Origin: Thiobacillus denitrificans DSM 12475
GTDB taxonomy: Bacteria; Pseudomonadota; Gammaproteobacteria; Burkholderiales; Thiobacillaceae
Direction: 5' to 3'
DNA length: 64,000 nt
Assembly: GCF_000376425.1 (NCBI RefSeq)
Contig: NZ_AQWL01000002.1
Coordinates: 391,805 to 455,804 of the forward strand
Shown here: positions 3 through 17,170 of the stretch, piece by piece
Numbering within the stretch: position 1 is the stretch's first letter
Layout: every line of letters starts with the position of its first letter
Position numbers and translations under genes: made by a program
The notes under the pieces: generated by a model
Database searches by the model: none
Seen by the model: only the letters and a program-made list of their open reading frames with translations
Told to the model about the DNA's origin: nothing

Positions 3-32
3 GAGGTGGCCGCCCGGATGGGATATCGATGA
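3..32 (+). CDS. C-terminal end of an upstream gene (partial)
   Basis: The first bases read in frame as EVAARMGYR followed by TGA at 30-32. That stop overlaps the ATG at 29 of the next gene (ATGA), the same coupling seen repeatedly in this cluster. Only nine codons are visible, so no function can be given. It is called from the overlap and would probably be another glycan-biosynthesis gene. Confidence 0.35.
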   Translation, partial: EVAARMGYR

Positions 33-1222
33 TGGCGGCGGCGCTCATTTTTGCGGTGCTGCTGCTGGTGTGGACAGGGGTGCTGCTGGTGTTTGCCGCG
101 CCGCTCGCCGCACGCTGGCGCGAGCCGGTGCTGCGCCAGCCGGTGCTCATCATCGAAAGCGATGACTGGGGGGCCGGGCCGCTGGCGCAGGCCGACGCAT
201 TGCGCTGCCTGGCCGCGTCGTTGCAGCGCGTGCGCGATCGCAGCGGGCGGCCGGCCGTGATGACGCTGGGGGTGGTGCTGGAAGTGCCCGACGGCACGCG
301 CATCGCAGCGGCCGGCTGCACGGAATACCACGCACTGACGCTTGCCGATGCCCGCTTCGATGCCGTCCGGGCAGCGATGATGGACGGCATCCGGGCGGGC
401 GTGTTTGCGCCGCAATTGCATGGCCAGTGCCACTATTGGCCGCCGGCGCTGCTGGCCGCCGCACAGGCGGATGCGGACGTACGGGCCTGGCTCACCGCAG
501 CCGAACCCGCTGCAACCGAGGACCTGCCATCGCATTTGCAAAGCCGCTGGATTGATGCTTCCGTCCTGCCGTCGCGCGCGCTGGCGCCGGCGGTGATGCG
601 GCAGGCCGCCGCCGCCGAGGCCGCCGGTTATCGGGCCATTTTCGGCAGCGCGCCGCAGGTGGCAGTCGCCACCACGTTCGTCTGGAACGACGCGATCGAG
701 GCCGCCTGGACGCAGGCAGGAATCGAAGCCGTCATCACGCCGGGCCGCCGCGCCACCTGCCGCAACGCCAAAGGGCAACCGGACTGCGTGGATGCCACGA
801 TGCTGACGGGCGAGCGGGCGTCAACGGGGCCCACCTACCTGGTGCGCGACGTGTATTTCGAGCCGGCGCTTGGGCAGCCGCCGCAGCGTCTGCTGGAAGG
901 CCTGCAGGCGCGCACGCGGCAGGGCCGCGCCTGCCTGGTCGAAACCCATCGCTTCAATTTCCTGCAGGCGCCGGACGCCAGCCTTGCCGCCCTGGAAACG
1001 GGACTGACGGCCGCGCTCGCCGCCAGCCCCGGCCTGCGCTTTCTCTCGCCGCTGGAACTGGCGCGCGCCGTGCGGGAGCGCGACCCGGCCTGGGTCGAGT
1101 CCCGGCTGCGGCCGCGCGTCGCCGCCTGGCGTGCGCGCCTGGACGAGATCCCGCGCTTCCGTCGCCTGGCGCAACTCACTGGCCTGGCGTTGCCGCTGGC
1201 CTGGCTGGAGCGGACGGCGTGA
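29..1222 (+). CDS. NodB-like polysaccharide deacetylase family protein, membrane-anchored, divergent
   Basis: 397 residues. Residues 3-25 form a hydrophobic N-terminal segment that should anchor the protein in the inner membrane or act as an uncleaved signal. The rest looks like a divergent carbohydrate esterase 4 fold: ESDDWG at 43-48 takes the place of the usual TFDDG metal/base motif, and HGQCH at 131-135 supplies the H-x3-H pair. Family knowledge would make it a zinc-dependent deacetylase or an inactive relative acting on a periplasmic glycan; the exact substrate cannot be read. It starts at tandem ATG codons (29 and 32) overlapping the previous stop, and its own stop overlaps the next GTG start. 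Functional call moderate because the motifs are degenerate. Confidence 0.65.
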
Positions 1223-4218: not shown

Positions 4219-4989
4219 ATGATCCGTTCCGCCAAAATCCTCCTGGCCCTACTCGCCGGCCTGCCGACGGCGGTCGCGCAGGCCAATTGGCTGCCCAGCC
4301 CGGCCGATATGGCGGCGCTGCCGCCGTATTGCGCAGCGCGGTTCAACGAAGGTTCGGATGCCTTCCGGACCTGGCGTTCGAATATGGGCGGGGATTTTAT
4401 TCACGTCCACCACTACTGTGCCGGACTCAATTTCCTCAACCGCGCGCGCGGCAACTTCACCCCTGGCCGCAACGACGGACTGGTGGCCGCAGTGCGCGAG
4501 TTCGACTACGTGCTGTCGCACGCCAGTCCCGATTTCTACCTGCGGGGGGAAATCTTGATGAACCGCGGCGTTGCGCTGTCCTTGATGAAGCGCGATGGCG
4601 AGGCGGTGAGCAACCTGCTCGAGGCGATCAGGCTGGATGCGCGGCAGTCACGCGCCTATATGACGCTGGCCGACTTGTACGACAAGCAGAAGAACCGAGC
4701 CAAGGCGCTGGAAACCGTGAGTGAGGGCCTGCGCCAAAATCCGGGCACCAGGAGCCTGCAGCGGCGCTATACCGAGCTGGGCGGCAAGCTGCCGTATCCG
4801 GAACCCGCTGTGGCCGCGGCGGCAACGATCGAAGCGGCCAAACCCGCAGCTGAACCGGCTGCGGCGCAACCGGTCGAGCCAGCCCAGGTCGACACCCCGA
4901 CCGCATCCGGTGCGCCAGTTGCCGAACCGAGCGCCCCGCCCAAGATCGGCTCGCCGCAGAATCCCTACTGCCGCTTCTGTCCGGATTGA
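4219..4989 (+). CDS. Periplasmic tetratricopeptide-repeat protein
   Basis: 256 residues. Residues 1-22 look like a Sec signal peptide cut after AQA. The mature part has a cysteine-containing N-terminal segment (LPPYCAARF, HHYCAGLNF), then two to three TPR-like helices around residues 95-185 (RGEILMNRGVALSLMKRDGE and AYMTLADLYDKQKNRAKAL), then an Ala/Pro/Glu-rich linker. It ends in NPYCRFCPD, a paired-cysteine tail. A ribosome site AGAGGA lies at 4203-4208. Such repeats mediate protein contacts, so it may scaffold an envelope polysaccharide complex. That role is inferred from position only. Confidence 0.75.
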   Translation: MIRSAKILLALLAGLPTAVAQANWLPSPADMAALPPYCAARFNEGSDAFRTWRSNMGGDFIHVHHYCAGLNFLNRARGNFTPGRNDGLVAAVREFDYVLSHASPDFYLRGEILMNRGVALSLMKRDGEAVSNLLEAIRLDARQSRAYMTLADLYDKQKNRAKALETVSEGLRQNPGTRSLQRRYTELGGKLPYPEPAVAAAATIEAAKPAAEPAAAQPVEPAQVDTPTASGAPVAEPSAPPKIGSPQNPYCRFCPD

Positions 4990-6079: not shown

Positions 6080-9000
6080 TCACTCAATGGTGGCCTGTGC
6101 ATCGGTGGCCAGGAAATCCTGCAGCCTTGTCCAGAGTTCGGCACGGATTTCTGGATGCTTGTCCGAAACGTCATATTGGCAAATTGGGTCGTTTTCCAGG
6201 TCGAAGAGCCTTAGCAGATGCCCCGATTCCAGCGGCTGATGAACCAGCTTCCAGCGTCCCCAACGCAACATTCTGTTTTTTGCGCGCAGGATGGTTCCCC
6301 GGAACTGGGGCTTGATCGCAAGTGTTCCGGTACCGCGGTTCGGGACTTCCATCAGTTCCAGTAGCCCCGGGTAGCGCAAATGGCCTTCGGGGAGACCGGG
6401 AATCTCGGTGATCCAGATGCCGGTTTCGTTGAAGGCCGCGAGATGGGGACATTCACCCGTTTCGGCAAGGCAGTTCAGCAGTGAAACACCTTCAACATGC
6501 GCCGGGATAGCCAAACCAACGCGCTCAAGGAGCGTGGGGACGAGATCGATCGAGCGCACCACGCTGTCGATCCTGCCGCGTGGCGGCCTGTGAGGGTCGT
6601 GAATGATCAGCGGGATACGGGGGCTCGCCTCGCCGACTGCCGAATTGCCCTGGCCCCACGTGTCGTGCTCAAAGAATTCCATGCCGTGGTCGGAGTAGAC
6701 GACGACGAGCGTGTTGTCGGCCAGCCCGCAGGCTTCCAGATGCTGCAGCATCATGCCGATCTCGTCGTCGAACTCGGCGACGCAGCCGTCGTACAGGTCG
6801 ATGATCTGGTCGAGGTCGAATTCCGACTTCGGTGCACCCTGGCGGCGGATGATCTCGAACGGGTCGGTTAGCTGCGCCATCGCGAATTTCGATTCGCCGG
6901 TGTAGGCCGGATCGGCGAAGCGCGTGTACCACGGCCACTCCGAGGCGAATGGCGGGTGGGTGGTCGAATAGAAGACGTTGAGGAGGAACGGCTGCGCACT
7001 TTCGGCGAAGCGCGAGACCAGTCGTCGTGCGCGCCTACCCAGCGGCTGCGTCAGCGGTACGCCGCCGAGGTAATACAGTTCCGGCAGCAGCAGGCGGCCC
7101 AGCCGGTTGTGGAGGAAGAGCGAAATATACAGCCGCAAGTCCTTGGGCCCTTGGCGGATCAGGTACTTCAGGTTCCACTGGTCGTGCGGCAGGTCGGTGT
7201 AGTCGAAACCGAAGGAGAACTTGCCCATGTCGGCGCCGCACCAGTCGGAGACCGCGGCGGTGCGATAGCCGGCCTGCTTCAGCAGCGTGGGCAGGGCATC
7301 GACCGTCAGCCGTGTGCTTTCGTCGCTGACGTAGTTGTCACGGATGCCGTGGGTGTGCGGCCAGGTGCCGGTGAACATGGAAATCAGGCTCGGCGCAGTG
7401 CGCGCGCACGGCACGTAACAGTTGGCGAACAGCGCACCGTCAGTTGCCAAGCGATCGAGGTTGGGGCTCAGCTTACGACGGTAGCCGAGCGCGCCGAGGC
7501 GGTCGGCGCGCAGGGTGTCGGAGCCGATCATCAGGATGTTGGGCGGCGCGTTTTCCGCCCGCGCCGGGCGCTTGCGCGGCGGCAGTGCATGCGGCTGCCA
7601 GCCGGCCCAGACGATCGTTCCTGAATAAAACAGGGCTGTGGCCCACAGTGCGATCAAATCGCCGAGGCGGGTATCCTTGGCCAGTTTCCAGGAGGTGGCG
7701 GCCAGCAGCAGGGCTGTGGCAGCGACACCCAGCGCCTGCAGGCGGGCAATACGTGCCGGCGTCATCGCATGCCACAGCCGGTACACCCGGCTCATGCGGT
7801 AATGCATCGACGCCACCAGCAGGCCTGGATTGAAGCGCAGCTTGCGGATGAACTGCAGCATGAAACCGCCCACGATGCCGAGCAGGGCGGCGACAGCGGC
7901 GAGCGGCCCTGACCACCCTGCACCGGATAACGTAGCCAGCATGAAGTAAATCAGCACTCCGGCACCGCCAGTGAACAGCATCACGGCGAATGCCCAGATC
8001 GAGAGCCGGGACAGTGCGAAGAGCGTGTAGCGTCGGTAATGGGTGAGTACTTCCTCGCGCATGCGCGGTCCGGTTTGCGAAAAATCGAGCAGCGATTTGG
8101 CAAGCAGGGCCAGGGTCCCCACACCTGCCACCAGCATCAGCGGAAGCAGGCCCGCCCAGCGTGCATCGCCACTGGCGAACCAGGCGAGTAACCCGCAGGC
8201 TGCAGTGACGACGCCGAGCCCCTTGATCCGCAGCGTACTGCGGTCGGGCGGCAGATCCAGTTGCTTGCGGCGATAGCCAGATTCGCGATGCCCCTGGATT
8301 TCTCCCAGGGCCGCCGCAGTACGGATCAGGTAGAAGCGGCGCTTGGACCATGACAGGCTCAGCAGCCCGTGAAGGAAGTACTCCCCCAGCTTGCGCCACA
8401 TGTAGAGCGGGACGGCGCCGCCACCTTGAATGCGGCTGGTGGAGCGAGTGCGCTGATAGCTTTTCTTCAGCAGGTATGCGAGCCGCAGGCGCTCGGTGTC
8501 GACAAAGTGGTACTGAACAATGGCCGGGGCATACTGGCATTGTTCGCCGCGCGACAGGGCCCGCAAGACGTATTCGCTGTCTTCCCCGCCGCCAAGGTCA
8601 TGGCCATGCGGACCCAGTTCGGTGGAGAACCGGCCCATAGCGTCGAACACCCGACGCCGGACGGTCAGGTTGCCCCCGCCCGGAATAGGGCCGGCAGCCG
8701 CGGTGATCAGGCGAGGCGTGTCGCCCTGATCGTAGCGTGGAACGGGCAGCGGATAAATGCGGTAGGGGCCCTCGTCGTGGACCCAGGCGGGCTCGCTGCC
8801 ATCCCAATCTGGCAGGATGCGTCCGCAATAGAGGCCGGCATCCGGCCACCGATGCACGGCCTGTTCGATGGCGGCCAGGAAGCCCGCATCGACTCGATGG
8901 TCATCATCGACGAACGTGGTGAGCTCTGTTTCGATGCGCCCAATGGCGGCGTTCAGTGCGTGCGACTTTCCGGGGGTGGGGACCTCGATCAGCGACAGAG

Positions 9001-9193
9001 GAAGCAGGCCTTCTGCCTGTTGCCTTGCCTGGTATGCCGTCATGCGTGCGACGGTGTCATCCGTGCAGGCGTTGGCCGCCACCAGTATGCGTACTGGCAT
9101 GGCCGGGCGTTCAGCCCGGTTGAGCGAAGCCAGCACGTTCGCGAGCAGGTTCGCCCGGTTATGCGTGCAGATGAGTATGGTCAGCGCAGTCAC
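6080..9193 (-). CDS. Fusion protein: GT2 glycosyltransferase + membrane domain + sulfatase-fold domain
   Basis: 1037 residues. Residues 1-300 are a GT-A glycosyltransferase (ILICTHNRANL at the start, FVDDDH at 94-99, GGGEDSEY at 201-208). Residues about 325-530 contain several hydrophobic helices. From about 551 a sulfatase/alkaline-phosphatase fold begins with PNILMIGSDTLRADRLG; SDHG at 834-837 supplies metal ligands. The formylglycine consensus C-x-P-x-R is absent: the aligned stretch is T599-A-P-S-L, so Thr is the likely nucleophile, as in lipoteichoic-acid-synthase and phosphoethanolamine-transferase relatives. The GTG start at 9193 overlaps the sulfotransferase stop (GTGA). Family knowledge suggests phospho-group transfer or hydrolysis rather than sulfate-ester cleavage; the topology and the role of the join are inference. 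Confidence 0.85.
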   Translation of the reverse strand: MTALTILICTHNRANLLANVLASLNRAERPAMPVRILVAANACTDDTVARMTAYQARQQAEGLLPLSLIEVPTPGKSHALNAAIGRIETELTTFVDDDHRVDAGFLAAIEQAVHRWPDAGLYCGRILPDWDGSEPAWVHDEGPYRIYPLPVPRYDQGDTPRLITAAAGPIPGGGNLTVRRRVFDAMGRFSTELGPHGHDLGGGEDSEYVLRALSRGEQCQYAPAIVQYHFVDTERLRLAYLLKKSYQRTRSTSRIQGGGAVPLYMWRKLGEYFLHGLLSLSWSKRRFYLIRTAAALGEIQGHRESGYRRKQLDLPPDRSTLRIKGLGVVTAACGLLAWFASGDARWAGLLPLMLVAGVGTLALLAKSLLDFSQTGPRMREEVLTHYRRYTLFALSRLSIWAFAVMLFTGGAGVLIYFMLATLSGAGWSGPLAAVAALLGIVGGFMLQFIRKLRFNPGLLVASMHYRMSRVYRLWHAMTPARIARLQALGVAATALLLAATSWKLAKDTRLGDLIALWATALFYSGTIVWAGWQPHALPPRKRPARAENAPPNILMIGSDTLRADRLGALGYRRKLSPNLDRLATDGALFANCYVPCARTAPSLISMFTGTWPHTHGIRDNYVSDESTRLTVDALPTLLKQAGYRTAAVSDWCGADMGKFSFGFDYTDLPHDQWNLKYLIRQGPKDLRLYISLFLHNRLGRLLLPELYYLGGVPLTQPLGRRARRLVSRFAESAQPFLLNVFYSTTHPPFASEWPWYTRFADPAYTGESKFAMAQLTDPFEIIRRQGAPKSEFDLDQIIDLYDGCVAEFDDEIGMMLQHLEACGLADNTLVVVYSDHGMEFFEHDTWGQGNSAVGEASPRIPLIIHDPHRPPRGRIDSVVRSIDLVPTLLERVGLAIPAHVEGVSLLNCLAETGECPHLAAFNETGIWITEIPGLPEGHLRYPGLLELMEVPNRGTGTLAIKPQFRGTILRAKNRMLRWGRWKLVHQPLESGHLLRLFDLENDPICQYDVSDKHPEIRAELWTRLQDFLATDAQATIE

Positions 9194-10161
9194 ACAGATT
9201 TCGCCTTGGAACGTTGCCAGTAGGCGGTCAACAGATTGTTGTGCAACCGGTAAGCGGCCTTGACTGCGAGCCGCGGCGGCTGCGCCGAGGTCGTCAATTC
9301 ATAGCCCAGTTCGCGCAAGGTGTTGCCTGCGACGCTCTCGAACGCGCGGATCTGCGCGGCAGACATCCGGGTGCGCCACTTGCCGGCGTTGTCCACCTTC
9401 AGGGGCTCGTGCACCAGCGGCGTCTTGCCCGGGTCATCAACGGGTGAAACTGCGAACATCCCGGCCGAGTAGGGTTCGCCGAGAAATTCACAGAGGGCCT
9501 GCATGGTGTCTTCAGGCTGTGCGAGCAGGTCCTCGTAGCGCAACTCGAGGTACTGGCCTGGCGGAAGCTGGCGACCCTGTTCACGTCCCTTCTCGATATA
9601 GCTTTCCCAATACTCCGCTGCGAAATAGGCGTTGTAGACATAGAAGTCATTGCGCCGACCGAACAAGGACAAGGCGACGTCGCGTCCGTCGCGAATCAGA
9701 TGGACGAATTGGGCCTTGGGAAACCATTCCAGCAGCCGCGTCATGTGCATGACGTAATACGGCGTCTTGTCGCCCCAGCGAGCCTTGCCCTCCCCCTGGG
9801 CATTCTTCTCGAACAGGCCGCTGATGATGGCCGGCAGCGTATGGCGCCCGGTGACGTGCAGCTCGGCCGCAAGCGCATCGCGGTCGAAACGCATGCCGTG
9901 CAGGTCCGTCTCCAGAAATTCGCGACTCTGGTCGTACATCGCCTGCAACACCGCCCGGATGTTCTCCAGTTGGCTGAGGTCGCCGAACACTTCCCGGTTG
10001 CGGTACAGCGGCATGAAGAAATGCGACTCGCCCGTCGGCAGCGAGATGCTGGGCAGATTGCGCAGGCGATATTGCAGCATCGTCGTGCCGGAACGGGGGG
10101 CGCCGACGATGAAGACAGGCGAGTCACTGCGTGGTGGCGGCGTCATGGGAACGGTATTCAT
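9190..10161 (-). CDS. PAPS-dependent sulfotransferase family protein
   Basis: 323 residues. The 5'-phosphosulfate loop GAPRSGTT is at residues 20-27 and the 3'-phosphate-binding segment RDGRDVALS at 157-165, the two signatures of sulfotransferases using 3'-phosphoadenylyl sulfate. Length is usual for the cytosolic bacterial family. It lies between glycosyltransferase genes, so a sugar of the exported glycan is the likely acceptor, though lipid or peptide acceptors occur in the family. It overlaps the downstream GT2-sulfatase fusion by four bases, indicating co-expression. Confidence 0.85.
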   Translation of the reverse strand: MNTVPMTPPPRSDSPVFIVGAPRSGTTMLQYRLRNLPSISLPTGESHFFMPLYRNREVFGDLSQLENIRAVLQAMYDQSREFLETDLHGMRFDRDALAAELHVTGRHTLPAIISGLFEKNAQGEGKARWGDKTPYYVMHMTRLLEWFPKAQFVHLIRDGRDVALSLFGRRNDFYVYNAYFAAEYWESYIEKGREQGRQLPPGQYLELRYEDLLAQPEDTMQALCEFLGEPYSAGMFAVSPVDDPGKTPLVHEPLKVDNAGKWRTRMSAAQIRAFESVAGNTLRELGYELTTSAQPPRLAVKAAYRLHNNLLTAYWQRSKAKSV

Positions 10162-10167
10162 TGGAGG

Positions 10168-11094
10168 TCAGGTCTGCGAACGGCGCTGGTAGCCGACGAT
10201 CAGGCCCAGCGCGTGGGTGGTATTCATGCCCTGGCGCAACAGGCGCGATTTGCTAGAGAGCAGCAGCTTCAGTGTCGTCAGGCAATGACGAAGAAACTGT
10301 CTCAGCAGGAACGGCGGGATGCCAAATACGGTGTGCGGGAACGCCGGCAGGCGAAACTGGCCATGGCGTAGGCCGGCGCGGTAATGCAACTGCAGGAAAT
10401 AGCGTGGCGTGAGCTTCCAGGGGTCGACACCGTGCCATACCGCCATGTCTGGCCGGTAGCGGATGCGTGCGCCGAGATCGAGCAGAGCGCGCAGCATCAT
10501 GGCATCCTCGCCGCCGCCAACGCCTTCGCCCGTGCGGTTGAAGCGTGCATCGAAGCGCAGTTCCGGATGGTCGCGGAAGAACGGCATCGCGTAGGCGGTG
10601 TTGCCGCTCCACACCGGCGTGGTGTCGTCGGCAATCCAGAAGGGCTTGGCGCCGTGGTCGAGCCGGCCGAGAAAACCCGCGACCTCGTCATCCAGCCAGC
10701 CAGGGCGGCGGCAGGGGCTGAAGTCGATCTCGATGCGGCCGCCGGCACAGTGCGTACCTTCGTTTGCGATCGCGTCGTACGCCGCGGCCAGGAAGCCGGC
10801 CTGCGGCAGTTCGTCGTCGTCGATGAACACCAGGATGTCGCGGCCGAGCGTTTCAGCCAGTGCGCGGTTGCGCGCGGGTACGATGCCGGGCGCGGTCTCG
10901 GTGACGATGCGCAACGGCGCCCCCGGTTCGCGCTGCAGCCGCGCCAGCACCTCGAGCGTGTCGTCCGGACTGTCGTTGTTGACGGCGAGGATATCGAACG
11001 GCGCTGGGCACGACTGCGCACGCAACGCGCCGACCAGCTTGTCCAGCCGGTCGGCACGCTTGAAGGTACAGAAGGCGACGGTGAGCGTGGGCAT
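10168..11094 (-). CDS. Family 2 glycosyltransferase
   Basis: 308 residues. It opens TLTVAFCTFKRADRL, has the DXD region FIDDDELP around residues 90-97, and GGGEDAMML further on for the acceptor/base region. The C-terminal 60 residues are basic and hydrophobic and may lie on the membrane. It resembles the N-terminal domain of the fusion protein two genes downstream, so the two may be paralogues. It is six bases from the sulfotransferase gene and four bases after the previous GT2 gene, in one transcription unit. Confidence 0.88.
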   Translation of the reverse strand: MPTLTVAFCTFKRADRLDKLVGALRAQSCPAPFDILAVNNDSPDDTLEVLARLQREPGAPLRIVTETAPGIVPARNRALAETLGRDILVFIDDDELPQAGFLAAAYDAIANEGTHCAGGRIEIDFSPCRRPGWLDDEVAGFLGRLDHGAKPFWIADDTTPVWSGNTAYAMPFFRDHPELRFDARFNRTGEGVGGGEDAMMLRALLDLGARIRYRPDMAVWHGVDPWKLTPRYFLQLHYRAGLRHGQFRLPAFPHTVFGIPPFLLRQFLRHCLTTLKLLLSSKSRLLRQGMNTTHALGLIVGYQRRSQT

Positions 11095-13013: not shown

Positions 13014-13814
13014 TCAGGTGCGTTTCAGGCGCCGGAACGCGTAGGCCGCGATGTCGCGCCAGCGCACGTCATGGCTGCCGAAATAAAGCTTGCGTGCGAA
13101 GCTGCCGAGGGTGTCGCTGTTGAACACGGTCAGCCGCCGCAGTTGATACGGATTCCCGTCGCGCAGGACCCAGCCGGTGCGGGTGGTGCAGGCAGCCGCG
13201 TAGCCGGCGTGTTGCGCGGCTTCGGCACAGCGCACGTCCCAGGCGCCGTAGGGATAGGCGAAGCTGCCAATCGGCTGTCCGAGCAGGGTTTCCAGCGTCG
13301 TCTTCGATTCGACGAGTTCGCGCATCATGGCAGCGTCGTCGAGTTCAGTAAGGCGAGCGTGGCTGACGGTATGCGAGCCGATCTCCATGCCGCCGGCCTG
13401 CATCTCGCGCAGTTCGTTGGCATTCAGCAGACGTCCCACAGGCCGGCCATCGGCCGGCCAGGCGGGCTCGCGTCCGATCGAGCCGCTGACGATGAACCAG
13501 GTGGCGCGCATGCCGCGCTTCTGCAGCTCCTCGCAGGCGGCGAGATTGTCGACGTAGCCGTCGTCGAACGTGATGACGGCGGTGCGCCCCCCCCATGCCT
13601 TGGCCGGCCTGGCCGCGAGCGTGCCCATGGTCGGGGTGGCATAGCCCTCGGCAGCGAGAAAGTCGAGCTGTTCGCGGAAGCGCTGCATCGACACCGCCCA
13701 CGGCCAGGACGGTGTGCCTGCACCAGGCGTGACGGCGTGATACATGAGCATGGCCGGACCATGCTGGCCAGCCTGGTTGTGCATTGCGCGCGAGAGGGGA
13801 TCGAGCCAGGTCAT
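13014..13814 (-). CDS. Polysaccharide deacetylase (NodB / CE4 family)
   Basis: 266 residues. The canonical NodB motifs are intact: TFDDG at 82-86 (catalytic base and metal Asp), SHTVSH at 147-152 (metal His pair), and FAYPYGAW further on for the substrate groove. No clear signal peptide is seen, so it may act on a lipid-linked precursor in the cytoplasm or be exported by another route. Unlike the divergent relative at the left end of the window, this one has every expected catalytic residue. Its start overlaps the flippase stop by four bases (ATGA). Confidence 0.9.
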   Translation of the reverse strand: MTWLDPLSRAMHNQAGQHGPAMLMYHAVTPGAGTPSWPWAVSMQRFREQLDFLAAEGYATPTMGTLAARPAKAWGGRTAVITFDDGYVDNLAACEELQKRGMRATWFIVSGSIGREPAWPADGRPVGRLLNANELREMQAGGMEIGSHTVSHARLTELDDAAMMRELVESKTTLETLLGQPIGSFAYPYGAWDVRCAEAAQHAGYAAACTTRTGWVLRDGNPYQLRRLTVFNSDTLGSFARKLYFGSHDVRWRDIAAYAFRRLKRT

Positions 13815-15280
13815 AGGGGGGTAGGCTTGGCGAGTTTAAGCTTGATTTTCCAGCGGTTCGTCTCTGCGGCGAGTGCAGGGATCGGCAAGTACAGGAAAGC
13901 GAGGGCGTAAACCAGTGCACCCGTGCTCGACATGAGCAGTACGTAGAGCGCGTCGATTGCCTGCACGGAGGGCGGAATGAGCTGGTCGAGGAGCCACAGG
14001 GCCGCCGCCAGGATGACATTCAGCAACAGGGCCGGCATGAAGGCGTGTGCCAGGTCGGCCCAGCGCGCCTGGAGCGACTGCTGCGCCAGCCAGAACATGT
14101 GGGTGCTCATGTAGAGCAGTGCGATCGCCAGGCCGGCTGCCACGCCCTGCATGCCGTAGGGCAGACCGATGATGATCGCCGCACCCGCGATGAAAATCAT
14201 GATCACCTGGGCGACGAGTTCCTTGCCGAGGCCGTTGCGCGCGGCGAGCACCGCGCCGGACAGGTTCTCGATCATCATCAGCGGCGCGGCCAGGCTGAGG
14301 ATCGTCAGGGGGGCTGCGGAGTCAGCCCAGCGGTGGCCGAACAGGGTGACGACCAGCGGCTCGGCGAGCCACAGGAAGCCGAGGTAGAACGGCAGCCCAT
14401 ACACCGCGACCAGGGTCAGGCTGCGAAAGAACAGGTAACGCGACTTGTCGAGGTTGTCCTGCTCCTTGGCGAGCGCGCGGAACAGCACCTCGTACACCGA
14501 GCCGGTGATGACGCTGTGCGGGCGCGTCGCCAGACTCTCAGCCTTGTTGAACAGGCCGACGCCGGCCGGGCCGATGCTGCGCGACAGCAGGAAAGTCGGC
14601 AACTGGCTGCGCACGTAGTAGACGATGTTGTTGCTGGAGGCGAGCAGACCGTAACGCATCAGCTCGCCGGCGCGCGCGAAATCGAAGCACAGGCCCGGGC
14701 GCCAGCGGGCATACCACGCGAACTGCAGCGCGCCGGCGACAGAGCTGAACAAACCCGCCAGAATCAGGCTCCAGGGGCCGTGCCCGAGCCAGGCCAGACT
14801 CAGCGCGACAGCGTTGTATACGACGAGGTTGCTCAGTTGGACGGCGGTCTTGGCCTTGAAGCGCATGTCGCGGTGCAGCATGTTGCTGGGCACGTTGAAG
14901 AAGGGTCGGACCATGAAGGACAGTGCCGCCACCCGCAATAGGTCGGCGTACAGCGGGTTCTCGTACCAGCGACCGAACCAGGGGGCGATGGTGAAGAAGA
15001 AGCCGACGATCGCCAGGCCGATCAGCGTCTGCAGGGTGAACAGCAGGTCAAAGTCGCGCTTCGACGCCTCCTTTGCGCGCACGATCGCCTGCCCCATGCC
15101 GCCGCCGGCGACGAAGCCGGCCAGGCTGGTGAAGATCAGGATGGTCGCCACCATGCCGAATTCGGCCGGCATCAGCAGGCGTGCGAGGACCAGCCCGAGG
15201 GCGAAGTTGATGATCTGGCTACCGGTGTTGCCGATGAACACCCATTTGGCGCCGTGGCGGATGGAATGGCCAAGGCTCAT
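13811..15280 (-). CDS. Lipid-linked oligosaccharide flippase (Wzx-like, MOP superfamily)
   Basis: 489 residues, almost entirely hydrophobic helices (about 12-14), opening GAKWVFIGNTGSQIINFALG and continuing ARLLMPAEFGMVAT, which fits the polysaccharide-exporter (RfbX/Wzx, PST) family. It would flip undecaprenyl-linked repeat units across the inner membrane for assembly in the periplasm. The surrounding glycosyltransferases fit that job. No Wzy polymerase, Wzc or Wza is visible in the window; they may lie to the left. Length is usual. Confidence 0.88.
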   Translation of the reverse strand: MSLGHSIRHGAKWVFIGNTGSQIINFALGLVLARLLMPAEFGMVATILIFTSLAGFVAGGGMGQAIVRAKEASKRDFDLLFTLQTLIGLAIVGFFFTIAPWFGRWYENPLYADLLRVAALSFMVRPFFNVPSNMLHRDMRFKAKTAVQLSNLVVYNAVALSLAWLGHGPWSLILAGLFSSVAGALQFAWYARWRPGLCFDFARAGELMRYGLLASSNNIVYYVRSQLPTFLLSRSIGPAGVGLFNKAESLATRPHSVITGSVYEVLFRALAKEQDNLDKSRYLFFRSLTLVAVYGLPFYLGFLWLAEPLVVTLFGHRWADSAAPLTILSLAAPLMMIENLSGAVLAARNGLGKELVAQVIMIFIAGAAIIIGLPYGMQGVAAGLAIALLYMSTHMFWLAQQSLQARWADLAHAFMPALLLNVILAAALWLLDQLIPPSVQAIDALYVLLMSSTGALVYALAFLYLPIPALAAETNRWKIKLKLAKPTPL

Positions 15281-16225: not shown

Positions 16226-17170
16226 TTAGTTTCTGCTCAGAAGTTTCTTGGCAAATGGACGTAAACGATTGAGTTTGAGTGCCTGTTCGGTTTGAAACAG
16301 CCACATTTTCGCTTGATGATCGCTGTCAGGTCCTTCTGCCCCAATGCATCGAGAGGGGATAGCCGTTCGAGATAAAGCTCCAGTTCGGAAGGCATTCTGA
16401 TAGGCGTCGCTCATCATTGACGTTCACTTTTGGCAGATGACTGAGTATACGTGCGTGATTGTCATGCCTACGTATGAATGCGTCGTTGATTTTCCTCCGG
16501 AATTCATCATCGACATCGTATGGGTGTAGTGATGTGTTGGAGCGACAGACCAAAGTGCTGTAAAGGCATTCGAACTTGTCCTGGTAGGTAATCGACAATG
16601 TAGGGGTGCCGTTTTCCAGTGAGGCAATAAGCAAATGCATGCACCCGGTGATAACAAGGTCGAGCAGCCCGTAAGCCGCTTGATCTTGTCAGGCTGGCCG
16701 ATCGATGTATAGCGTACATGTACGAATTCCCTGTGTTGCAGTGCCCGATCGAATGCCTGCAGCATATACGTCCACCCATGACGAACAAGGCATGATGTTG
16801 ACGTATTAATTCATCGAACGCGCGCGTTCCCGCTGCCCCGTGCCAGGCCTGCACGAAGGGTGTGTGCCCGACGCTCGGCACCACAATTGAACGGCGTTGT
16901 CCGCCGATGATGGTAAAGCTGGAGGCTGGGTTTTGTGTGCGGAGCGACTGCATCAAGGCACTGAACATGGCCAGGTTGTCCAGGGACCTGGAGGGGTCGC
17001 AGACATCTCCAGCATTAATGGCGAAACGTATGGCTACTTCGGGCATGACAAGCTGGGGTGTCAAAATACGTAAGCGACGCAAGGGTAGAACGCCCCGCAG
17101 GGCATTACGAGCAATGATGGCCTAATTGATCAAATATTGTCTGCGCATCGTCAATATCCAGGCTCGTCAC
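16226..17170 (-). pseudogene. Decayed polysaccharide pyruvyl transferase gene (several frameshifts, probable deletion)
   Basis: No single frame spans this stretch, but consecutive minus-strand pieces in different frames look like one PF04230-type protein. A GTG at 17170 overlaps the upstream stop (GTGA) and opens about 18 codons ending at a stop. A shifted piece from about 17124 includes INAGD, MFSALMQSLR and ALFVMGG. Another frame holds QHREFVHVRYTS. A third holds DLVITGCMHLLIASL then GTPTLSITYQDKFECLY, close to the family C-terminal V-x-T-G-R-M-H / GTP / YQDKFEGL blocks. At least three frame changes are needed, and about 100 residues expected between VMGG and the C-terminal part are missing. 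It would have added pyruvate ketals to the glycan. Sequencing error could explain some shifts but not the missing block. Confidence 0.7.

Follow-up and report, generated by a model that had tools for sequence, protein, structure and literature searches.

A glycosyltransferase–sulfatase-fold fusion and its described relatives

LtaS, EptA/EptC, OpgB and YejM/LapC, membrane-bound enzymes of the alkaline phosphatase superfamily, have five helices and a catalytic domain that is periplasmic or otherwise outside the cytoplasm. Phosphonate monoester hydrolase (PMH), SpAS1 and SpAS2 are soluble cytosolic enzymes that depend on formylglycine (FGly), and choline sulfatase is a soluble cytosolic enzyme. 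Passages of PMC7576196 describe the catalytic threonine of LtaS, EptA and YejM as the nucleophile and give the ligand set of their one-metal site as D, T, D and H. Here we analyze a gene that combines features of these groups within a 64,000-nt stretch of Thiobacillus denitrificans DSM 12475 (the window, in whose positions all coordinates are given). The gene, at 6080..9193 on the minus strand with a GTG start, encodes a 1037-residue protein that joins a GT2 glycosyltransferase head, a six-helix membrane domain and a sulfatase-fold domain of Thr type. The original prediction, which gave no strand, was a two-face model, in which the protein adds a sugar on one side of the membrane and edits a phospho- or sulfo-group on the other. 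Our analysis points to a constant module that faces the cytoplasm and bears exchangeable heads. This claim is of greater interest than the two-face model, which is best abandoned, and it can be tested directly.

The prediction of a single protein comprising all three parts agrees with the open reading frame (ORF), the Pfam matches, the six helices and an AlphaFold2 (AF2) model; the plus-strand frame of the same interval is broken by stops. Pfam places Glycos_transf_2 (PF00535; residues 5-145, E 7e-11) and Glyco_tranf_2_3 (PF13641; residues 4-230, E 1e-11) at the N-terminus and Sulfatase (PF00884; residues 551-893, E 2.4e-45) toward the C-terminus, with the six hydrophobic helices between GT2 and PF00884. 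Folding, topology and tree inference used an alignment of 53 of the 79 clustered family members (42 fused and 11 stand-alone), which leaves out ORFs called too long, fragments and a number of near-duplicates and from which loci L015 and L016 are absent. The window's head, of type A (residues 1-305; 8279..9193, minus strand, as for all features of this gene), retains its acidic metal and catalytic motifs: D96 of D96-D97-D98-H99 (8897..8908) is found in all 42 fused rows and D97 and D98 in 37, and E204-D205 (8579..8584) is again present in 42/42. NCBIfam gave only sub-cut-off matches, in which the head resembles GT2 models of the HpsE/EpsD kind with D96 and E204-D205 intact; unlike those enzymes, it is fused to an alkaline phosphatase superfamily membrane module and is exchanged between loci.

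Catalytic residues of the sulfatase-fold domain

The S1-sulfatase/PMH fold is complete across the whole C-terminal domain (residues 549-1037; 6083..7549). Searches returned S1 sulfatases, PMH and choline sulfatase as fold neighbors, and the nearest solved folds include 4uph, 4upl, 2w8s and 2vqr (PMH and the promiscuous SpAS1 and SpAS2), which differ from the fusion in being soluble and in having no GT2 head. Residues D559, T599, A600, P601, S602, D650, W651, H746, D835, H836, Q848 and N850 are invariant in 53/53 relatives, and position 603 is Leu in 52 and Met in one. The active-site segment had been given as T599-A-P-S-L, which is exact (T599-A-P-S-L603). The predicted nucleophile T599 (7397..7399) occupies the FGly position in every row; the predicted metal ligands are D559 (7517..7519), opposite a sulfatase Asp in the alignment, and D835-H836 (6686..6691), which belong to an SDHG motif.

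Alignment to the C-x-P-S-R segment of the solved sulfatase 6hhm set T599 opposite Cys and L603 opposite Arg, and the invariant D650 and Q848 fell opposite lysines of 6hhm and 7oz8. This Arg and the two lysines are the residues with which true sulfatases grip sulfate. The active-site His H746 (6956..6958), opposite a His of 6hhm, is the one basic pocket residue that we saw kept; the pocket His that follows the first Lys falls in a gap of the sulfatase alignment. The domain resembles S1 sulfatases (PF00884) throughout its catalytic fold and in its D559, H746 and D835-H836 motifs, and differs from them in its Thr, in its replaced pocket Arg and lysines, in being membrane-embedded and in its fusion to GT2. 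Sulfatase activity is unlikely because the basic residues that would hold the sulfate are replaced, and we rejected an FGly-dependent S1 sulfatase as a candidate on this ground and on the Thr found at the nucleophile position in place of Cys or Ser. A broader version, in which the domain is a sulfatase or sulfo-group transferase working with the neighboring sulfotransferase on sulfated exopolysaccharide (EPS), could draw on the fold, on PF03781 (FGE-type) matches in the genome and on sulfotransferases in at least 36 of the 54 loci flanked on each side by at least 6 kb. The missing convertible Cys or Ser and the altered pocket count against it, as do 18 of those 54 loci in which simple gene calling, for which presence is a lower bound, found no sulfotransferase; we regard it as very improbable. 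The gene is probably mislabeled as a sulfatase.

The residues of a Thr-type one-metal site (D559, T599, D835 and H836) are all present in 53/53, the metal itself being predicted. A Thr at the FGly position makes a nucleophile of the kind used by LtaS, EptA and YejM plausible by analogy. The proposal of a covalent Thr intermediate as in LtaS and EptA is therefore plausible as far as the residues go, although by sequence and fold the domain groups with S1 sulfatases and PMH. LtaS, EptA/EptC, OpgB and YejM/LapC were not among the listed matches of our sequence and fold searches; the domain may nonetheless be kin to them. We also considered a catalytically dead domain that would hold the GT2 head in place, as a scaffold or by anchoring it in the membrane, a role which would suit a module found alone and with different heads. 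Such a role seems highly improbable, marginally more so than a sulfatase, given that the nucleophile and predicted metal residues are invariant across Beta- and Gammaproteobacteria and that a module standing alone has nothing to anchor.

Membrane topology

Six helices emerged from family-averaged hydropathy, from the AF2 model of the whole protein (pLDDT 83.9, pTM 0.76; long helices at residues 318-340, 344-369, 387-423, 429-454, 479-506 and 510-531) and from an AF2 model of the membrane domain alone (pLDDT 88.5, pTM 0.81). TM1 (residues 318-340; 8174..8242) is an additional helix with which the membrane domain begins in the fused forms and which the five-helix stand-alone relatives do not have; TM2-TM6 (residues 344-531; 7601..8164) make up the five-helix core common to those relatives, whose long loops on the catalytic side are rich in Arg and Lys. 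The aligned loops held on average 13.7 Lys/Arg on the catalytic side versus 1.2 on the opposite side, in the same direction in 53/53 rows, and most of this signal comes from loops of 29 and 38 residues. We recounted the membrane region with one method for all rows and for the Escherichia coli controls LapC, EptC and OpgB, and found six helices and a Lys/Arg-richer catalytic side in 41 of the 42 fused rows; the exceptional row was called with seven helices and a reversed bias. The controls were biased opposite to the fusion (catalytic versus other side, 5 v 12 for LapC, 4 v 9 for EptC and, weakly, 4 v 6 for OpgB, a poor topology control with four helices called). The catalytic domains of E. coli LapC and EptC are periplasmic.

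An earlier hydropathy calling over whole proteins had made the catalytic side richer in 34 of the 53 rows, with the reverse in 18 and one tie. It took soluble-domain segments (e.g., residues 892-910) for helices and so gave mixed parities, which is why we relied on the aligned loops, the AF2 helices and the membrane-region recount. GT2 enzymes use cytoplasmic sugar nucleotides. An even number of helices behind a cytoplasmic GT2 would leave the sulfatase-fold domain in the cytoplasm as well. The loop charges, a strong positive-inside signal, and the predicted structures support this well, and both domains are probably on the cytoplasmic face. The claim that sugar addition and phospho- or sulfo-editing take place on different faces did not hold up against the six helices and the charge bias.

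Stand-alone forms bear on the same question. At a laxer threshold of 0.9 the 11 stand-alone rows had five helices in six cases, six in three, and four and seven in one each, and five is the number that an outside N-terminus would require. The catalytic side was Lys/Arg-richer in 10 of the 11 at this threshold and in nine of the 11 at the stricter one. Where the start lies near the helix (L117, L121, L122 and L015), the N-terminus is charge-poor, as expected of an outside end; the true start is unsure in rows L108, L111, L116, L120, L124 and L125. L016 has several Arg ahead of its first helix. A caution comes from YejM, in which passages of PMC7576196 place an Arg-rich linker before a periplasmic domain: charges adjacent to the domain prove little by themselves. 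A fold search of the membrane domain returned nothing above noise.

These data also bear on a two-sided glycan editor, with GT2 inside and a periplasmic transferase or hydrolase as in LtaS, EptA and OpgB. Those Thr-type enzymes of the superfamily that are known to be membrane-bound act outside, as passages of PMC7576196 report for YejM, and a five-helix core followed by a catalytic domain resembles their layout. The fused protein nevertheless has six helices, which put both ends on one side, and its charge bias is opposite to that of EptC and LapC, making such an editor improbable. With LtaS, EptA/EptC, OpgB and YejM/LapC the fusion shares an active-site Thr, a one-metal site, predicted in the fusion, and a multi-helix domain ahead of the catalytic domain (passages of PMC7576196); the GT2 head sets it apart, as does the charge bias relative to EptC and LapC. 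A catalytic domain outside the cytoplasm, a trait of LtaS, EptA and OpgB, was not supported by the indirect test of helix number and charge, and because it fails their topology in this test we did not file the fusion as a Thr-type membrane transferase.

Exchange of heads at a fixed joint

The fused rows carry one of three heads (A in 28 of the 53 rows, A2 in nine and B in five). A2 is 42-46% identical to A, and head B was matched by the B query only. On a tree of the module, the four states (A, A2, B and stand-alone) needed 14 changes, for a minimum of three; shuffled labels needed 22.9 on average, and 0/200 shuffles were as low as 14. Well-supported branches alone force at least six changes for A2 and at least four for B, and some branches are long enough that single placements are unsure. 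The DNA between near relatives with different heads becomes homologous at almost the same residue (∼314 in L053/L063, ∼310-311 in L057/L075, ∼315 in L068/L058 and ∼314 in L066/L082), within a junction box (residues 310-318; 8240..8266) that contains L-P-P-D-R. Past the joint, the DNA of such pairs matches downstream through the module at 75-92%. One pair, L055/L076, had a less sharp joint with the first match at residue 346, and same-head pairs (L047/L052, L049/L064 and L072/L074) were similar through the head too. We conclude from these comparisons of sequence that heads are swapped repeatedly at a fixed joint on a constant membrane plus C-terminal module, an unexpected feature that the original prediction had not included.

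The two parts also exist as separate genes of one cluster, as judged from a separate GT2 gene with 53-56% identity to head A that ends ∼2 kb upstream of the module match in eight of the 13 stand-alone loci. This gene was not found upstream at L113 and L118, and L016, L111 and L125 offered little upstream DNA for the search.

Heads tend, by the genes found beside them, to travel with their own upstream gene, which we tabulated for 74 of the 79 members (at least 900 bases upstream). A gene with no Pfam match lies directly upstream of 11/12 A2 heads and 0/62 other genes; an example is L102 2540-3469 (+), encoding a 309-residue protein. A DUF6492 gene, possibly a glycosyltransferase partnering head B, precedes three of the five B heads and no other genes (e.g., L077 7914-8873, +). 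In the window, the upstream gene is a sulfotransferase (9190..10161, minus strand; PF13469, E 1e-38) whose stop overlaps the GTG start of the fusion gene by 4 bases (GTGTGA), which confirms that the fusion directly follows a sulfotransferase; the latter is possibly part of the exchangeable cassette. Its family stands directly upstream of only 15/46 head-A, 3/12 head-A2 and 0/5 head-B genes, and we rejected a fixed sulfotransferase partnership on these counts. Another sulfotransferase family directly precedes 10/11 stand-alone and 6/46 head-A genes.

A constant module under variable heads would suit a substrate common to all strains, and this also speaks for another enzyme: a cytoplasm-facing phosphodiesterase or phosphatase that would trim or free stalled lipid-linked intermediates, or hydrolyze a small phosphodiester or nucleotide by-product, beside the GT2 head. 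The closest folds are hydrolases, PMH and choline sulfatase among them, and passages of PMC7576196 ascribe phosphatase activity to YejM, a membrane-bound relative of Thr type. A six-helix membrane domain with conserved residues, however, exceeds the needs of a soluble by-product hydrolase, and we consider a hydrolase of this kind a serious contender, if on the unlikely side.

Occurrence in other genomes

Of 61 genomes drawn from the organism's own genome, genus and order, 49 contained a match of some kind to the protein (E≤0.001). Most matches outside the genus were to a general sulfatase or GT2, G050 being the clear exception (72% across the full length of the protein). Of the 37 Thiobacillus genomes (G000-G036), 32 have the membrane plus sulfatase-fold module, which was not found in G003, G009, G012, G020 and G029. 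Among the 32, 23 have an A/A2-type head (the copy in G008 is apparently frameshifted), four a type-B head, three are apparently broken by contig ends (G022, G025 and G031) and two are stand-alone (G001 and G028). The single stop counted within each of the G019 and G017 matches is the protein end (ORFs of 1032 and 1036 aa).

When named genomes were scanned, 156 relatives were confirmed and the best 80 of them retained; these extend the family beyond Thiobacillus to genera including Nitrotoga, Sulfuricella, Sulfuriferula, Thauera, Aromatoleum and Marichromatium. Isolates with the fusion include Thiobacillus thioparus DSM 505, T. denitrificans RG, Sulfuricella sp. T08 and Aromatoleum anaerobium. 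An assembly artefact joining two genes can be ruled out because the fusion recurs in many independent assemblies, isolates included, and the Thiobacillus module copies are mostly fused. The module is otherwise sparse, with 21/369 genomes in a class survey (E≤1e-40) and 1/398 in an evenly drawn phylum survey (E≤1e-60), the one being the window's own genome. The genome has a second PF00884 protein, separate from the fusion, of 738 aa (L033 5620-7836, +; contig 5), which resembles phosphoglycerol transferase I weakly and below threshold.

Genomic setting

The surroundings of the gene are those of an XrtA/PEP-CTERM exopolysaccharide locus. The same contig holds, above cut-off, exosortase A at ∼19 kb (TIGR03109), an XrtA amidotransferase at 15 kb (TIGR03108) and an exosortase-A-associated O-glycosylation ligase at 9 kb (TIGR03097), along with an XrtA-type GT4 at 14 kb. 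Beyond the sulfotransferase the next gene further upstream is a GT2 (10168..11094, minus strand), and a polysaccharide deacetylase-like protein and a Wzx-type flippase (13014..15280, minus strand) belong to the same cluster, as do many glycosyltransferases. A short ORF within the cluster at 16507-17082 (minus strand) is possibly a gene remnant.

Across the 54 loci in which sulfotransferases were counted, we found tetratricopeptide repeat (TPR) proteins in at least 44, GT4 in at least 40, asparagine synthase in at least 32 and deacetylase in at least 28; these are lower bounds, because greedy ORF calling overlooks real genes beneath spurious ORFs. The TPR family, represented in the window at 4219..4989 (plus strand), is found in 58/81 loci, usually beyond the 3' end of the fused gene and on the opposite strand, and both copies that we read (the window's and that of L097) end in Asn-Pro-Tyr-Cys-Arg-Phe-Cys-Pro. 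A family with a Ser-Asp-Asp-Trp-Gly motif, present in 36/81 loci, is represented at 29-1222 (plus strand); the window copy has no Pfam match and a relative in L084 has a weak GH57 match.

Similar clusters have been described in part. Those linked to flocculation in Thauera MZ1T and to biofilm in Rubrivivax list a "sulfatase (wbbL)" gene in the passages of PMC4784049 and PMC3684757 that bear on them. The genes concerned, Tmz1t_3253 (Thauera MZ1T) and RGS1_10427 (Rubrivivax gelatinosus psc1), are probable relatives by annotation: the clusters excerpted there resemble the window's in having a deacetylase, GT2s, asparagine synthase and Wzx, and a double sulfatase/WbbL label fits a GT2-sulfatase fusion. 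RGS1_10427 carries no transposon mark in the published table (PMC3684757). For neither gene do the passages analyze domains, active site or topology. Thauera relatives of the window gene were recovered directly (L104, L118 and L123). In our literature search we recognized no functional study of this fusion and found only these two annotated EPS clusters. The introduction to the Thauera paper, in its passages on EPS, mentions possible non-sugar substituents esterified to EPS (PMC4784049), which would suit, without showing, an enzyme of the type proposed below.

A proposed role in exopolysaccharide assembly

We infer, with less assurance than for the topology, that the module acts on lipid-linked repeat units, either transferring or hydrolyzing a phospho-group. 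Our preferred, still tentative reading is that two enzymes are combined here into one membrane unit of XrtA-associated EPS assembly, in which a cytoplasm-facing Thr-nucleophile transferase would move a phospho-group onto lipid-linked units. Thr599 would attack a phosphodiester, probably of an inner-leaflet phospholipid, take up its phospho-alcohol group and pass this to the undecaprenyl-linked repeat unit that the GT2 head had just extended. Since heads that are unrelated share one module, the acceptor would probably be some portion of the lipid-linked unit that all strains have in common, with the head setting the strain-specific sugar. A wider formulation, which we put forward with slightly more doubt, would have an alkaline phosphatase superfamily enzyme that faces the cytoplasm and uses a Thr nucleophile edit lipid-linked units before they are flipped, with its module acting as a dock for heads that are swapped by recombination at the fixed in-frame joint, often together with the upstream gene.

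This wider formulation, if true, would constitute a modular route to exopolysaccharide diversification. Should both the topology and the chemistry be borne out, EPS could receive phospho-groups while its lipid-linked precursor is still inside the cell, from an enzyme physically joined to the one that adds the sugar. The proposal gives a testable function to a gene labeled only sulfatase in the literature that we found. The in-frame exchange of heads may further provide a genetic handle on changes of matrix sugar in floc and biofilm formers (Thauera, Thiobacillus, Nitrotoga and probably Rubrivivax), changes that would be of relevance for wastewater flocs.

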